A stretch of DNA of 43,570 nucleotides from Candidatus Fibrimonas sp. (GTDB lineage: Bacteria > Fibrobacterota > Fibrobacteria > Fibrobacterales > Fibrobacteraceae). Position 1 is the first letter of the stretch. Each line of letters starts with the position of its first letter. The stretch is taken from NCBI GenBank assembly GCA_031273195.1, contig JAISSJ010000096.1, forward strand, positions 1-43,570. The letters are read 5' to 3'. Of this stretch, positions 793-42,602 are shown one piece after another. Made by a program: the position numbers and the translations under genes. The notes under the pieces are model-generated. The model saw only the letters and a program-made list of their open reading frames with translations. It had not been told where the DNA came from and made no database searches.

Positions 793-1181
793 TTTCTACC
801 TCCGGTTTAGGATTAATTCGCCCTGCGGAATTGCAAAGCAAAGATTCTGCGGAATGTCTTCCGAAATTTTGAAAAAATAATTTTTTTGCGAAGAAATTAA
901 GAAACTGGCACGATTTTTGCTGGGGGGGGGGTAAAAATTTGCCCTATATATGCGGCAAAATGGGCAACCGCAAAGGTTGCCCCTACGGTGCAATGATGGT
1001 TGTAGGGGCTACCCTTGCGGTCGCCCATTTTTTGCCCCCAAACGTAACGTGCCCCAGAGCCTATGGCAGAGGGTGACCCTGCGTAGCAGGGTCTAAAAGA
1101 GGCGTTATGGCGGGCATTTTGCGGCATATGAGGGTAAATATAGTATTTTTTTTGGGGGGTTGGCAAGGGTTATAACCGCAT
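793..1181. repeat. Intergenic repeat element A (promoter-like box, short ORF, C10/G10 tract, REP-like hairpins)
   Basis: No conserved gene lies here. Read on the minus strand, a TATATT box (first T at 1142) is followed 15 nt later by ATG (1127-1125). That opens a 76-codon frame ending at 897. A core, AGGCTCTGGGGCACGTTACG (minus strand, about 1062-1043), recurs in elements B and C. A run of ten C on the minus strand (G at 922-931) lies inside the frame and codes for Pro. Two inverted hairpin repeats of the form GGGCAACC...GGTTGCCCCTAC occur at 962-986 and 1002-1026. A perfect 8-bp hairpin, GACCCTGC-GTA-GCAGGGTC, lies at 1075-1093. If the C tract were of length 3k+2, the frame would run to 796, stopping 3 nt before the ATG at 792. 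Confidence 0.55.
905..921 (+). promoter_or_regulatory. Sigma-54 (-24/-12) promoter-like site
   Basis: The sequence CTGGCACGATTTTTGCT has the invariant GG (907-908) and GC (919-920) separated by exactly 10 nt, matching the YTGGCACG-N4-TTGCW consensus. The predicted start is about 932, immediately after the ten-G run at 922-931. It points rightward, away from the membrane-protein gene and into the 3' side of the nif operon on the antisense strand. No plus-strand gene lies between it and 5565, so any transcript would be non-coding or antisense. Confidence 0.5.
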
Positions 1182-6221: not shown

Positions 6222-6857
<636 letters not shown>

Positions 6858-29871: not shown

Positions 29872-30384
29872 TATATTTACCCTCAAATGCAACCTCAGAC
29901 CTGCAAACTGCCCCTCACGCTAGACCCTCTGACACAGGCTCTGGGGCGTTTTGCGTTTAGGGGTAAAAACCTGCCCAAAAAATTGGGTTTGCGGTTTCAT
30001 GGGCTTTGCAGCCCGAAAATACGGCATTTTACCCCCCCCCCCCCCCCCCCCCCTCAGCAGGAAGCAGGTAAAACTAGCAGCTTAGAGCTTTCCTGCACAC
30101 AGGAAACCACAACGCAGAACAATTTAGTGCTTTCCCGCTGGCAGGAAACTACGTTTCATTGCTATTTACTACTTTCCTGCATACAGGAAACAGCATTTCA
30201 GAACCATTTGGGGGGTTCCTGCACGCAGGAAACAGTATTTCAGAGCAATTTGAGGCTTTCCTGCACACGGGAAACCGTATTTCAGAGCAATTTATGGCCT
30301 TCCTGCACACAGGAAACCATTATTCCGAGCCGTTTGCTTGGAGAACGTATCTGTTTTTATCAAAATAAGGAGAATAATCTATGA
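29872..30384 (+). repeat. Repeat element B: promoter-like box, leaderless-type ORF with C22 tract, running into DUF6261
   Basis: TATATT at 29872 is preceded by TTTTTTC and followed 15 nt later by ATG (29887). The core AGGCTCTGGGGCGTTTTGCG (29936-29955) and the run of 22 C at 30032-30053 match elements A and C. From 29887 the frame is open for 165 codons. It goes through Pro codons in the C tract and through the 42-bp array (as 14-residue repeats like Leu-Ser-Cys-Thr-Gln-Glu-Thr). It stops at 30382-30384, where TGA overlaps the DUF6261 ATG. The other two registers stop at 30071 and 30085, so only tract lengths of 3k+1 connect the ORF to DUF6261. Whether it is translated is unproven. Confidence 0.5.
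30089..30316 (+). repeat. Array of six 42-bp units, each with a TTTCCTG-N4-CAGGAAA hairpin
   Basis: Inverted repeats start at 30089, 30131, 30173, 30215, 30257 and 30299, an exact 42-bp period. Each has 7-bp arms around a 4-nt loop (mostly CACA or similar). Units 2, 4, 5 and 6 carry one substitution in an arm. The spacers are conserved too (ATTTCAGAGCAATTT in the best copies), so this is a tandem satellite and not a CRISPR. The array ends 64 nt before the DUF6261 ATG. Because 42 bp is four turns of B-DNA, all palindromes face the same side of the helix. Confidence 0.9.
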
Positions 30385-31130
30385 GAATAGACAGCTTTTA
30401 CAGAAAAAATCTGCGAAATGACGAGCATTTCCAGCTTAACACCGAGTTCCGAGACCTTATTATTAAGGAAGGGGCGGAAAATCTGAAGGTAGGGGAACAG
30501 TTTGCAGCCTATCAGTCTTCTTACAACAAGGAGGACGAGGGAATTAAAAGGGTTAGCAAGAGCCTTTTCACCGAGAAAATTCAGGAGGCGGACAAAGCCC
30601 GCGATGATATTTACTCCGGCATGGTGGAGATTAACGAAGGCTCGCTGAAGCACTACAATCCAAGTGTGCGGGAGGCGGCAAAGAAGCTCAAAATACTGTT
30701 TGACACTTATGGAAATCTCTCGCACAAACCGCTCAATGAGCAGACGTCGGCGGTTAATAATATTTTGCAGGAATTGAAGGGGAATTATCTTGAAGCGACC
30801 CGGACTGTTCAGATAGACGGCTGGGCGAATGAGCTTGAAGCGAGGAACAATGCCTTTGACGTGCTTGTAAAAGGTCGTGCCGATGAGGCTGCTGCCAAAA
30901 CCGATGTTGTTGTGAAGCAGGCTCGTGTTGAGCTTGACGGGGCTTATGATGCTGTTGTTGAGCGTATCAACGCTTATGCGGTGATTGAGGGCGGTGAGAT
31001 GTATGAGCGGTTTATCAAGACATTCAATTTTGTGATTGCGAAGTATAATGCTATTGTGAATGCGAGGCTCGGCAGGAGAAATCACAAGCCGGCTGGGGAG
31101 CATGAAACGGCGGAGGTAGAAAATGCTTAA
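30381..31130 (+). CDS. DUF6261 family protein
   Basis: 249 residues, nearly all helical, with no membrane segment or signal peptide. The start (Arg-Ile-Asp-Ser-Phe-Tyr-Arg-Lys-Asn-Leu-Arg-Asn-Asp-Glu-His-Phe) and the middle segment Tyr-Gly-Asn-Leu-Ser-His-Lys-Pro-Leu-Asn-Glu-Gln are what I remember of DUF6261 from Bacteroidota and Fibrobacterota. The function is unknown. AAGGAG lies 8 nt before ATG, and the ATG also overlaps the stop of the upstream element-B frame. The 3' end overlaps the next lipoprotein gene by 8 nt. Codon use is GC-balanced like the core genes. Confidence 0.8.
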   Translation: MRIDSFYRKNLRNDEHFQLNTEFRDLIIKEGAENLKVGEQFAAYQSSYNKEDEGIKRVSKSLFTEKIQEADKARDDIYSGMVEINEGSLKHYNPSVREAAKKLKILFDTYGNLSHKPLNEQTSAVNNILQELKGNYLEATRTVQIDGWANELEARNNAFDVLVKGRADEAAAKTDVVVKQARVELDGAYDAVVERINAYAVIEGGEMYERFIKTFNFVIAKYNAIVNARLGRRNHKPAGEHETAEVENA

Positions 31131-36356: not shown

Positions 36357-37259
36357 ATGTTGGCAAACTCAGGCGAAACTGCGACCAACCGCAAGTACAA
36401 GAACAGTGTGTTCACAGAACTTTTCGGTACACCCGAAAAAGCACTGGAACTATACAACGCTATTAGTGGCAAAAACTATCCGCCAGGCACCAAAGTCAAA
36501 ATAGTGACACTTTCGGATGCTCTTTATATGGAGCAACTGAACGACATCGCTTTTGTGATAGATGGCAAATTGGTGGTATTAGTAGAGCATCAATCTTCTA
36601 TAAACGAGAACATGCCGCTCAGGATGCTCGTATATATGTCTCGTGAATATGAGTTGCTCACGGATCGCAAGGCTTTATACATGGAGCATAAAATCAAAAT
36701 TCCTTCTCCTGAATTTGTAGTTTTGTACAATGGCGAGAAGGAGATGGCCGATTTCAAGGAAATGAGGTTGTCTGATTCTTTTGAGCTTGCGCAGGACTTT
36801 CCCAATCTTGACCTTGTTGTTAAGGTTTACAATATCAACAAGGGCCGGAATGCGGAGATGGCGGCGAAAAGTTCATCTCTTAGCGGTTATGAGGAGTTCA
36901 TAGCGGCGATTAGGGAGAACCTTAAGGCTATGAGCTTGAAGGAAGCGGTTAAGGTTGCGATAAGAAGTTGTATTAGCAAGAATATTTTGGTAGAGTTTTT
37001 AACAGAGCATGGCTCGGAGGTAGAGAATATGTTGTTCCATAAGTGGAATATGGATGAGGCCCTTGAGGTCAGGTTTGAGGAAGGCATAGAGGAAGGCGTG
37101 GAAAAAGGTATTACCATTGGTGAGACTAGAGGCATTGCCCTTGGCGAGACCAAAGGCCTTCTGCATACGGCTCGTAATATGAAGGCTAAGGGCTTTAACA
37201 CTGCCGTGATTTGCGAGATTACCGGGTTGTCGGAGGCGGAGGTTGAGGGGTTGGATTGA
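36357..37259 (+). CDS. Rpn-family recombination-promoting nuclease / putative transposase
   Basis: 300 residues. The PD-(D/E)xK nuclease fold of the Rpn (YhgA-like) family: Lys-Asn-Ser-Val-Phe near the start, then Leu-Asn-Asp-Ile-Ala-Phe-Val-Ile-Asp-Gly-Lys-Leu-Val-Val-Leu-Val-Glu-His-Gln-Ser-Ser-Ile with the Asp, Glu and Gln active-site residues. The C terminus has the usual Glu-Glu-Gly-Ile-Glu-Glu-Gly-Val-Glu-Lys-Gly repeats and a small helix-turn-helix-like end. I use the ATG at 36357 with ACGGAGGA upstream. The last 50 nt of the gene are duplicated 680 bp downstream. Confidence 0.88.
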   Translation: MLANSGETATNRKYKNSVFTELFGTPEKALELYNAISGKNYPPGTKVKIVTLSDALYMEQLNDIAFVIDGKLVVLVEHQSSINENMPLRMLVYMSREYELLTDRKALYMEHKIKIPSPEFVVLYNGEKEMADFKEMRLSDSFELAQDFPNLDLVVKVYNINKGRNAEMAAKSSSLSGYEEFIAAIRENLKAMSLKEAVKVAIRSCISKNILVEFLTEHGSEVENMLFHKWNMDEALEVRFEEGIEEGVEKGITIGETRGIALGETKGLLHTARNMKAKGFNTAVICEITGLSEAEVEGLD

Positions 37260-37944
37260 GGCGGCTTAGTATTTTTATATATTCCTTAAAAAAGGAGTTT
37301 TTATGAATGATAATTTTGATTGGGATATGTCCGAGGCATATAAGAGGTATGTGAACTCTAAGCCTTCTACTGTACAAAATGAAAGAATAAGGCCTGATGG
37401 CCAAGACATCTTTGAGTGGTTGCTTGAAGACAAAGAACTAATCCATCAAACAGACAAGGATATTAGAGCGGCAGGTTTTGTATAGAGGAAAAATCTGCCA
37501 AGTTAAAGGAATGGATTTGGGAGAGTGATTCCGAAATTCCAAGGAACAGGCTTTCTGTTTCAAATGACTGTATTTTAAACATTATAGATTTGGTGGAACG
37601 CCGCAGAGTGTATTTTCATGTATTCCACGGAATAAATATGTCCGAGTGGAACGAAATGGCATTATTTTGAAATACCGTCATCAAATGCAAAATCTAGAAC
37701 GGCAAATGAAGTAAATGCGATATTGGCCGTTAGAATGCTTTATAACACAGCGAACAAAATACGCCAAAATAAGGGAAAAGGCCGAATCGGGTTGTCTTGC
37801 ATAAGTAACCTTGCTCATGCTTTTAGATATAGAGATTTAAGTAAAGAAGCGGTTATGGCAATATTTGAGGCGTTGATTGAAAAGTAGAGTTTGCGAGATT
37901 ACCGGGTTGTCGGAGGCGGAGGTTGAGGGGTTGGATTGAGGCGG
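37210..37944 (+). repeat. 55-bp perfect direct repeats (37210-37264 and 37890-37944) flanking a 625-bp segment
   Basis: Both copies begin TTTGCGAGATTACCGGGTTG and end TTGGATTGAGGCGG with no mismatch. The first copy is the last 50 nt of the Rpn gene plus 5 nt; the second has only that fragment. The 625 bp between them hold the decayed gene at 37303-37887. The arrangement could arise by tandem duplication and deletion, or by insertion of the segment with a long target duplication. Confidence 0.9.
37303..37887 (+). pseudogene. Decayed unknown gene with two frameshifts in T4 tracts
   Basis: AAAAAAGGAG precedes the ATG at 37303. The first frame gives 60 residues (begins Met-Asn-Asp-Asn-Phe-Asp-Trp-Asp, ends at 37485). 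Adding one T at the run before the stop leads into Cys-Ile-Glu-Glu-Lys-Ser-Ala-Lys-Leu-Lys-Glu-Trp and on to Asn-Met-Ser-Glu-Trp-Asn-Glu-Met-Ala-Leu-Phe. Removing one T from a second TTTT run leads into Glu-Ile-Pro-Ser-Ser-Asn-Ala-Lys, ending Phe-Glu-Ala-Leu-Ile-Glu-Lys at 37887. The joined product would be about 195 residues. I do not know the family. Both breaks are in T runs. Confidence 0.6.
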
Positions 37945-37960
37945 ATTGTGAGCGACATAA

Positions 37961-41495: not shown

Positions 41496-41579
41496 TTACG
41501 GCCATCGTAATAGCACACTTACGATGACCGTAATAACACGATTACGGCAACCGTAATAGCACGATTACGATGGCCGTAA
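41496..41579 (-). repeat. Array of four 23-bp units, each a TTACG-N5-CGTAA hairpin
   Basis: Palindromes start at 41496, 41519, 41542 and 41565, an exact 23-bp period. Arms TTACG/CGTAA are invariant, loops are GCCAT, ATGAC, GCAAC and ATGGC. The fourth unit is the exact reverse complement of the first. Spacers are also alike (TAGCACAC, TAACACGA, TAGCACGA). The last palindrome ends 1 nt from the stop codon of the HU-like/DUF4469 gene. Possible roles are binding sites, an mRNA 3' stabiliser or an attenuator; no protein is known to bind it. Confidence 0.9.
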
Positions 41580-41580
41580 A

Positions 41581-42327
41581 TCATAAAACCGACAAAACCC
41601 TATCAAAAACCGTATTTCTAGGCTCTTTAAGCAAGTGCTTGCTATTACCGCCGTATTGAGTGGCTATTTCCAGCTTGTAACTGCCTGCCGCCAATGCCGG
41701 GATTACAACTATCAACTCGGAAGGCTTGTTCACGGGCATTTTTGAACTAACCTTTACCCGTTCATTGGTCTCTTGGTTGATGAAATAAACGCCATTTTCG
41801 GCGTTTTCACCCGAAATTCTGATTTTGCTCCCGCTTATACGCAGATTGCGATTGGGGGTAAGCAGGTCGCTTATGCTCTCGCTCTCAATATCCGTAACTT
41901 CGTCAATGAAGAAGGTGGCTTTGTTCACGCCCGTAATCTCAACATTAATGTTCGCAAGCTCCCTGCGAAGCCGCAAACCCTGATTGAAATCAAAGGATAT
42001 CTTGTGCTTTTCGGGGTTGAACTGCTCCGTAGCCTTGTTGAACACCCCCTTAATCTTGGGCCGGACATTGAAAACGCCCGTGTTCACCGTGAAACCGTTG
42101 CATAGCAGATAGGCCATCTCGCTCAAATACAGGTCAACGGCGTGTTCCATAGCCTTGGCGGAAATATCCGCCCCGCCTCTCTGTGCCGCATAATTGCAAA
42201 CATCTTTTGAGGTGAGGGGTTTGTCCGCTACCACCCTTGCCGCAAAGTCGTTAGGGTCTTCGGTGAGCACGTTATCATATAACTCTGCTCTAATCTTGTG
42301 CTTGCGTAATTGCTCATTACTTGCCAT
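41581..42327 (-). CDS. HU-like DNA-binding protein with C-terminal DUF4469 domain
   Basis: 248 residues. The N-terminal half (about 1-125) fits the HU-like DNA-binding domain: Thr-Ser-Lys-Asp-Val-Cys-Asn-Tyr-Ala, Ala-Met-Glu-His-Ala-Val-Asp-Leu-Tyr, Asn-Gly-Phe-Thr-Val-Asn-Thr-Gly-Val-Phe-Asn-Val-Arg-Pro. The C-terminal half (about 130-248) is the Ig-like DUF4469: Leu-Thr-Pro-Asn-Arg-Asn-Leu-Arg-Ile-Ser-Gly-Ser-Lys-Ile-Arg-Ile and Asn-Lys-Pro-Ser-Glu-Leu-Ile-Val-Val-Ile-Pro. GGAGG lies 5-6 nt before ATG. Element C sits upstream and the 23-bp palindrome array directly downstream, so it is a natural candidate to bind such repeats. That link is inferred. Confidence 0.85.
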   Translation of the reverse strand: MASNEQLRKHKIRAELYDNVLTEDPNDFAARVVADKPLTSKDVCNYAAQRGGADISAKAMEHAVDLYLSEMAYLLCNGFTVNTGVFNVRPKIKGVFNKATEQFNPEKHKISFDFNQGLRLRRELANINVEITGVNKATFFIDEVTDIESESISDLLTPNRNLRISGSKIRISGENAENGVYFINQETNERVKVSSKMPVNKPSELIVVIPALAAGSYKLEIATQYGGNSKHLLKEPRNTVFDRVLSVL

Positions 42328-42425: not shown

Positions 42426-42602
42426 CTAGCAGACGGGGGGGGGGGGGGTAATTTTGATATAAGCAGGAATGCCGTTAGCATCGCATAGTCTGGGCACCTT
42501 GGGTGTTTTTTGGTCCCCCAAAAAACGTGCCGCCGAGCCTGCGGTGGAAGGTCGGGCGAGGGGCGGTTTTTGGTTCAGGGACTGCATTTATGGGGTAATA
42601 TA
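42426..42602 (-). repeat. Repeat element C: promoter-like box, 53-codon ORF, C14 tract, upstream of the HU-like gene
   Basis: TATATT (first T at 42602) is preceded by TTTTTTC and lies 15 nt before ATG (42587), as in A and B. The core AGGCTCGGCGGCACGTTTTT (minus, 42540-42521) matches the other copies. The present frame runs 53 codons (42587-42426), ending just after a C14 tract (G at 42435-42448). Its residues Pro-Ser-Thr-Ala-Gly-Ser-Ala-Ala-Arg-Phe line up with Pro-Ser-Ala-Ile-Gly-Ser-Gly-Ala-Arg-Tyr of element A. With 3k C the frame would end in TAA directly against the HU-like ATG; with 3k+1 it would overlap that start. Confidence 0.55.

Follow-up and report, generated by a model that had tools for sequence, protein, structure and literature searches.

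Poly-C tracts in short upstream reading frames as a probable phase-variable control of gene starts in Candidatus Fibrimonas

Introduction

In classical contingency genes, such as those of Neisseria, Helicobacter, Campylobacter and Bordetella (bvgS), poly-C or poly-G tracts are located within the coding sequence. At the pil1 and pil3 pilus loci of Streptococcus gallolyticus, the number of GCAGA repeats in a leader peptide sets the length of the leader; in the case of pil1, translation reads on in two registers and ends early in the third, reading on disrupts a terminator, and the mechanism has been confirmed by mutants (PMC3894217). In Helicobacter pylori tlpB, a variable G-repeat in the mRNA leader is paired by the sRNA RepG (PMC8295292). 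We found nothing relevant in the literature on phase variation in Fibrobacter or on coupled phase-variable upstream ORFs, and leader peptides are not mentioned in a 2025 review of phase variation.

Here, we analyse a stretch of 43,570 bases from Candidatus Fibrimonas sp., called the window below, together with its source genome and relatives, in which poly-C tracts occur inside short ORFs upstream of genes. As in pil1/pil3, a simple repeat lies in a short ORF between promoter and target, the repeat number modulo 3 fixes the position of the leader stop, and reading on through the spacer would be the ON state. The differences are that the repeat is poly-C and not the pentanucleotide GCAGA, that the leader appears to be nearly leaderless while those of pil1/pil3 have a ribosome-binding site, that the target in pil1/pil3 is a strong intrinsic terminator, which is not found beyond chance here, and that the leader stop falls on the start of the gene (ATGA). 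The scale also differs, with two loci in pil1/pil3 and dozens per genome, genus-wide, here. The first-pass annotation of the window stated that no system of this kind had been described, which is too strong considering the pil1/pil3 leader peptides (PMC3894217): the leader-repeat principle is already known, and what is new is the variant form and its genome-wide scale.

With the classical homopolymer contingency genes the present loci share a hypermutable homopolymer, a frame-dependent ON/OFF choice and surface-protein targets, but the tract belongs to an upstream ORF of its own, the target protein keeps its sequence, and two registers can be ON. The resemblance to tlpB is that a variable homopolymer in the 5' leader would tune the gene behind it, although the leader is here an ORF with a conserved reading frame and not a site of sRNA pairing. 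Finally, as in translational coupling and overlapping ATGA pairs, the upstream stop overlaps the downstream start, while in contrast to ordinary pairs only some registers connect the upstream ORF with the gene.

Results and Discussion

The window contains only three C/G runs of at least 8, and the longest run elsewhere is at most 6. The three are the tracts of elements A, B and C, for which the run search agrees with the pure tracts of 10, 22 and 14 C annotated before (922-931, minus strand; 30032-30053, plus; 42435-42448, minus). Each element has a TATATT -10 box (1137-1142, minus; 29872-29877, plus; 42597-42602, minus), and recomputation confirms for each of them a distance of 15 nt between the first base of the box and that of the ATG (1142/1127, 29872/29887 and 42602/42587), as well as an ATG frame that stays open into the tract, which is read as proline. 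Element A has in addition a plausible candidate -35 box, TTGCCA, at 1161-1166 (minus), 18 nt from TATATT. The core AGGCTCTGGGGC-CGTTT, which the first-pass annotation considered to be common to the three elements, has exact copies in A and B only, C having a degenerate form of it (AGGCTCGGCGGC-ACGTTTT).

In element B, the assembled leader ORF of 165 codons (29887-30384, plus) is in the ON register. Its frame crosses the tract and then a series of tandem 42-nt units in the tract-to-gene interval (30082-30319, plus; each with the 7-bp hairpin or palindrome TTTCCTG-CACA-CAGGAAA), and with 22 C it ends at +4 of the ATG of a DUF6261 gene (PF19775 by profile match; 30381-31130, plus), forming an ATGA overlap. 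The other two registers end at 30085 and 30071.

Element C precedes a gene with profile matches to HU-DNA_bdg (PF14848) and DUF4469 (PF14734) at 41581-42327 (minus). Its leader ORF as assembled has 53 codons (42426-42587, minus) and, with 14 C, stops 9 nt past the tract and 98 nt upstream of the HU-like ATG, that is, in the OFF register. With 15 C the leader would end in a TAA that abuts this ATG, and with 13 C at +11 of it. Similarly, the 76-codon leader of element A (897-1127, minus; OFF register), assembled with 10 C, stops 25 nt past the tract and 104 nt short of the ATG at 792, whereas 11 C would bring the stop to 3 nt before this ATG and 9 C to +17 of it. The first ORF downstream of element A encodes 30 aa behind the SD GGAGG (700-792, minus) and overlaps an ORF of 210 aa (78-710, minus), which has a weak Sigma_reg_N match under the Pfam cut-off. 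As assembled, element B is thus ON, while elements A and C are OFF. All three reach the next gene in at least one register, as annotated before, and the second reaching register of A (9 C) and C (13 C) had been overlooked.

A few other sequences in the window can be mentioned here. Directly 3' of the HU-like gene there are three 23-nt units related to CGTAATAGCACGATTACGATGAC, which form inverted repeats (41506-41579). The closest relatives of the HU-DNA_bdg/DUF4469 protein found in named genomes are in Bacteroidota MAGs, with 45-55% identity (cf. L063-L067), which suggests an inter-phylum transfer or a common mobile origin. A 58-nt direct repeat with 98% identity is present at 37210-37267 and 37890-37947, the copies being 680 bp apart, and 7-nt repeats of the ACTCTCA type are found at 6410-6445. 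Similar repeats, TTGAGAATGGAGA, are inserted in several leaders of the related genome G011 (L049, L054 and L056), and in some G011 leaders they create stops.

We now consider how widespread these elements are, using a minimum tract length of 9 C. The source genome assembly (1.96 Mb in 186 contigs, 61% complete) has 63 runs of at least 9 C. Of the 12 genomes from the genus, 11 have such tracts, with up to 51 in a genome other than the source, and C runs are few in the remaining genera of the family; in ten genomes of those genera, inspection of sampled tracts gave no such leaders. In the neighbouring genus G018 there are 38 runs of at least 11 C, and two open leaders were seen among the tracts fetched there. 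The search of genome and relatives proposed in the first-pass annotation yields a family of boxed C tracts, while the core is absent from most copies. A repeat family defined by AGGCTCTGGGGC was accordingly discarded: only two exact copies exist in the genome, and the core cannot be family-defining because most other copies lack it.

The leader set comprised each tract with an exact TATATT upstream followed by a near ATG, with openness being scored and not selected on. Of the 81 leaders of both genome sets, 74 have an open ATG frame between ATG and tract; for the other two frames the numbers are 2 and 3. In the first set an open ATG frame is seen in 47 of 52 (others 1 and 3), where dinucleotide shuffles give 8.9 ± 2.6 with a maximum of 17, and in the second set, made up of other genomes under identical rules, in 27 of 29 (others 1 and 0; shuffles 4.2 ± 1.8). 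Giving clusters of similar leaders equal weight leaves the picture as it is, with 22.0, 1.0 and 2.2 of 27 open by frame, the ATG frame first. On the C strand, a TATATT-ATG leader is found at 80 of 164 tracts, compared with 8 of 167 on the G strand.

The gap between box and ATG clusters at 6-12 nt and spans 4-12 nt in all, mostly 8-11, and a TTGACA-like -35 box (at least 5 of 6 matches, at a spacing of 16-18 nt) accompanies 28 of the 81 leaders, mainly in the first set, against 1.4% in shuffles. From these motifs we infer a promoter, and since the ATG is only a few nt from the expected transcription start, the leader mRNA is probably leaderless or nearly so. At L024 and L039, ordinary genes (lipoprotein, FISUMP-type) also start a few nt past CTATATTTACCC (match at 1501), and leaderless mRNAs may be common in the genus. 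A leader of the same family but without a C tract is found at L027 (match at 1501), where the ORF overlaps the beginning of a DUF6261-like gene and terminates shortly within it, as though its coupling to that gene were permanent. Concerning the peptide itself, the comparison among copies gives a pN/pS of 0.57, a value biased by the alignment step and corresponding to a weak peptide-level constraint; with leader sequences also being diverse, a conserved function of the leader peptide was rejected.

The second part of the analysis concerns the spacer, defined as the sequence between the tract and the ATG, preceded by an SD, of the downstream gene, for 94 loci; spacers beginning in C-rich junk were left out. 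Zero, one, two and three frames are open in 9, 36, 49 and 0 spacers, respectively, as compared to 41.9, 30.8, 18.6 and 2.6 in shuffles, meaning that 85 of the 94 have one or two open registers, 9 have none and not a single one has all three. The commonest class, with two registers open and one closed (49/94), corresponds to the two read-on registers and one early stop of pil1. Taken alone, the second set has at least one open frame in 42 of 45 spacers (28.1 ± 2.3 in shuffles), and with equal weight for clusters of similar spacers there are still none with three open frames. Real upstream regions that lack a tract resemble the shuffles far more: at a length of 100, an open frame is present in 8 of 17 of them and in 31 of 32 tract loci.

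In closed frames, the stop is at a median of 13.5 nt past the tract, compared to 32 nt in shuffles. Relative to the frame of the downstream gene, the open registers number 29 in-frame and 57 and 48 in the two out-of-frame positions, with about 25 expected for each. Where frame 1 is open, it stops at ATGA in 51-52 of 57 cases, and a frame-2 stop within +20 of the gene start is found at 31 of the 48 loci where that frame is open against 14 of the 46 where it is closed (Fisher p = 0.001). ATGA starts are present in 84 of 94 tract genes and 17 of 33 control genes. The upstream stop thus overlaps or abuts the downstream start, mostly at ATGA, as in termination-reinitiation. Together, the frame counts and the stop positions define two classes of register, one stopping early and one running to the gene start, and because it is out-of-frame arrival that is enriched, the target is the gene start and not the gene's own frame.

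This bears directly on the possibility that leader and tract constitute a phase-variable N-terminal extension of the target protein. An in-frame register does exist at 29 of the 94 loci, and L050, L221 and L222 are even assembled in-frame. However, with 25.3 expected, in-frame openness is at chance, so that the tracts do not behave as in-gene contingency tracts lying in the target's coding frame; moreover, a fusion would bury N-terminal signal peptides, and every gene retains its own SD and ATG. We regard such an extension as largely refuted and very improbable.

An even smaller probability, close to negligible, is assigned to the pattern being a product of chance or artefact, with AT-rich promoters standing before GC-rich repeats and homopolymers arising from sequencing or assembly. 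It is true that the genomes look like short-read MAGs and that many tracts are at contig ends, followed by C-rich junk, but in both independent sets the frame statistics lie far outside the shuffled range, the G strand yields few leaders, and the pattern was not found in the tracts examined from other genera of the family. The leader and spacer tests support a real reading-frame device, and chance is excluded genome-wide. At the level of sequence, the promoter-like box, the leader ORF, the tract and the register-dependent arrival can be considered as settled.

On this basis, we consider it quite probable that the elements are phase-variable leader ORFs, in which slippage in the C tract sets whether translation stops early or runs to the next gene. 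A sigma70-type promoter would start the mRNA a few nt before the leader ATG, and the leader would be translated from a (nearly) leaderless message. The ribosome would then pass the C tract as a run of prolines, and the tract length modulo 3 would set its onward frame. OFF would correspond to one or two frames with a stop close behind the tract, often within 15 nt, while in the ON case the frame would remain open over the folded spacer and end on or just past the gene start, typically at ATGA. Ribosome transit in the ON state would unfold the spacer and shield the transcript from termination, and terminating ribosomes would be delivered to the gene start. The OFF state could be based on lost reinitiation, spacer structure or Rho-type termination, the direction of the effect being a presumed one. 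Slipped-strand gain or loss of a single C would flip the state of the locus.

The slippage-switched coupling suggested in the first-pass annotation agrees with every prediction that can be put to the sequences, for about 80 leaders and 94 spacers of several genomes: a conserved open leader frame, arrival at the gene start in some registers, prompt closure of the others, an excess of ATGA, and differences in tract length between paralogues.

As to what the leader ribosomes do for the gene, the SD accessibility obtained from local folding is 0.38 at tract genes and 0.40 in controls. A start that is weak or masked without upstream translation is thus not supported, and SD masking was rejected as the cause of the coupling, as an SD is present and its masking is no greater than in controls. 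Compared with control upstream regions, the folding of the spacers is more stable (z -1.27 vs -0.34, p = 0.013). This feature fits a variant in which OFF is caused by intrinsic or Rho-dependent transcription termination, with the coupling at the start being incidental. pil1 operates in this way (PMC3894217), and the closed frames end ahead of most of the spacer. On the other hand, intrinsic terminators in the spacers are barely above chance (7 of 94 vs 4.9 ± 2.1 in shuffles), strong structures of hairpin plus T-run number 6 vs 2.6 ± 1.2, spacers of 29-50 nt expose little naked RNA, and the placement of ATGA indicates the gene start itself. Termination as the main cause is accordingly a possible but somewhat doubtful reading, which is a variant of the best explanation and not exclusive of it. 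We favour ribosome delivery to the start combined with melting and protection of the spacer, to which transcription polarity would add at long spacers; polarity alone is unlikely because some spacers are only ca 30 nt.

It remains to consider whether the tract length actually changes. Paralogues with similar flanks have unequal tracts, namely 15 and 19 C for L030/L043, 18 and 13 for L171/L178, and 14, 17, 15 and 14 for L206/L207/L221/L226, and the length must therefore have changed since the duplications. Slippage would presumably also act in living populations. The assembled registers are mixed, with 16 of 43 loci ON where 20.7 are expected at random, i.e. without bias towards ON; lengths from short reads are unreliable. 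For MAGs of this kind, misjoins and C-rich junk occur at the tracts, and several contigs end in a tract or in such junk. In contig C148 of G000 (L013/L040), a genome with many contigs ending in a tract, C/G-rich junk connects the ends of two tracts; tract-to-tract joins such as that at L013 were judged to be misassembly and not real structure.

Another option considered was that the tract is a molecular randomiser, in which the ribosome or the RNA polymerase slips on CCC, such that every transcript is read in all three frames and a fixed fraction reaches the gene, which would give a set level of expression and no ON and OFF cells. Known +1-slippery sites include runs of CCC codons, and ribosomes are slowed by poly-proline, both of which suit this idea, as do the tract lengths, which extend far beyond the 9-C limit, up to 61 as assembled; identical frame constraints would also be selected. 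But such a device needs no variation in length, and similar paralogues do differ; long C tracts are classic hypermutable sites; and randomisation alone leaves the absence of loci with three open frames unexplained. We consider it improbable.

Returning to slippage as the switch, the wider picture would be one of contingency across the genus: in each genome, dozens of genes for secreted proteins, lipoproteins and others are likely to stand behind a leaderless poly-C leader ORF each, with slippage randomly joining or cutting the ribosome flow to them. It is likewise rather likely that the target proteins are unaltered by the switch and that many loci have two ON registers and one OFF register. 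Among the profile-tested targets FISUMP domains dominate, together with OMP barrels, one MACPF domain and one CsgG-like protein; 37 of the 94 targets have a clear lipobox by a strict pattern, and signal-like N-termini are seen in many more. The HU-like and DUF6261 genes proposed earlier as the targets do both occur as such in the source genome (HU-DNA_bdg/DUF4469 in the former case), while the main targets are FISUMP, lipoprotein and other secreted genes. FISUMP domain matches amount to 57 to 155 per genome in four genomes of the genus, a number that points to Fibrobacterota. To our knowledge, regulation of the FISUMP, lipoprotein and OMP barrel families found here has not been described.

If true, the mechanism would be a control layer of general reach in an uncultured gut-type genus, with large families of surface proteins under it. 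Each locus predicts its own ON tract lengths, which makes surface phase variation directly testable. An open leader, a tract and a register-dependent arrival at ATGA also provide a cheap genomic signature that can be looked for in any genome, and the results suggest that screens for in-gene repeats overlook this class of leader ORF. In addition, poly-C leader tracts would account for the breaks in short-read assemblies at those sites.

Finally, the DUF6261 genes have a feature of their own. All seven genes examined, from three genomes, have 3-6 palindromic or hairpin units in front of them at a spacing of 41-42 nt (window 30082-30319, L267, L268, L270, L271, L273 and L274), with a palindrome that differs from locus to locus, e.g. 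GTGAACACGTTCAC at L267. As 41-42 nt is about four turns of DNA, the arrays look like helically phased, locus-specific candidate binding sites, and perhaps the DUF6261 protein itself is the ligand of the units. The four arrays that have a C tract keep to exactly 42 nt, or 14 codons, throughout, whereas the three that lack one mix spacings of 41 and 42, the numbers being small. Some frames are also open across the tract-less arrays. The restriction of the exact 42-nt spacing to the tract arrays is as expected if only these are translated through.
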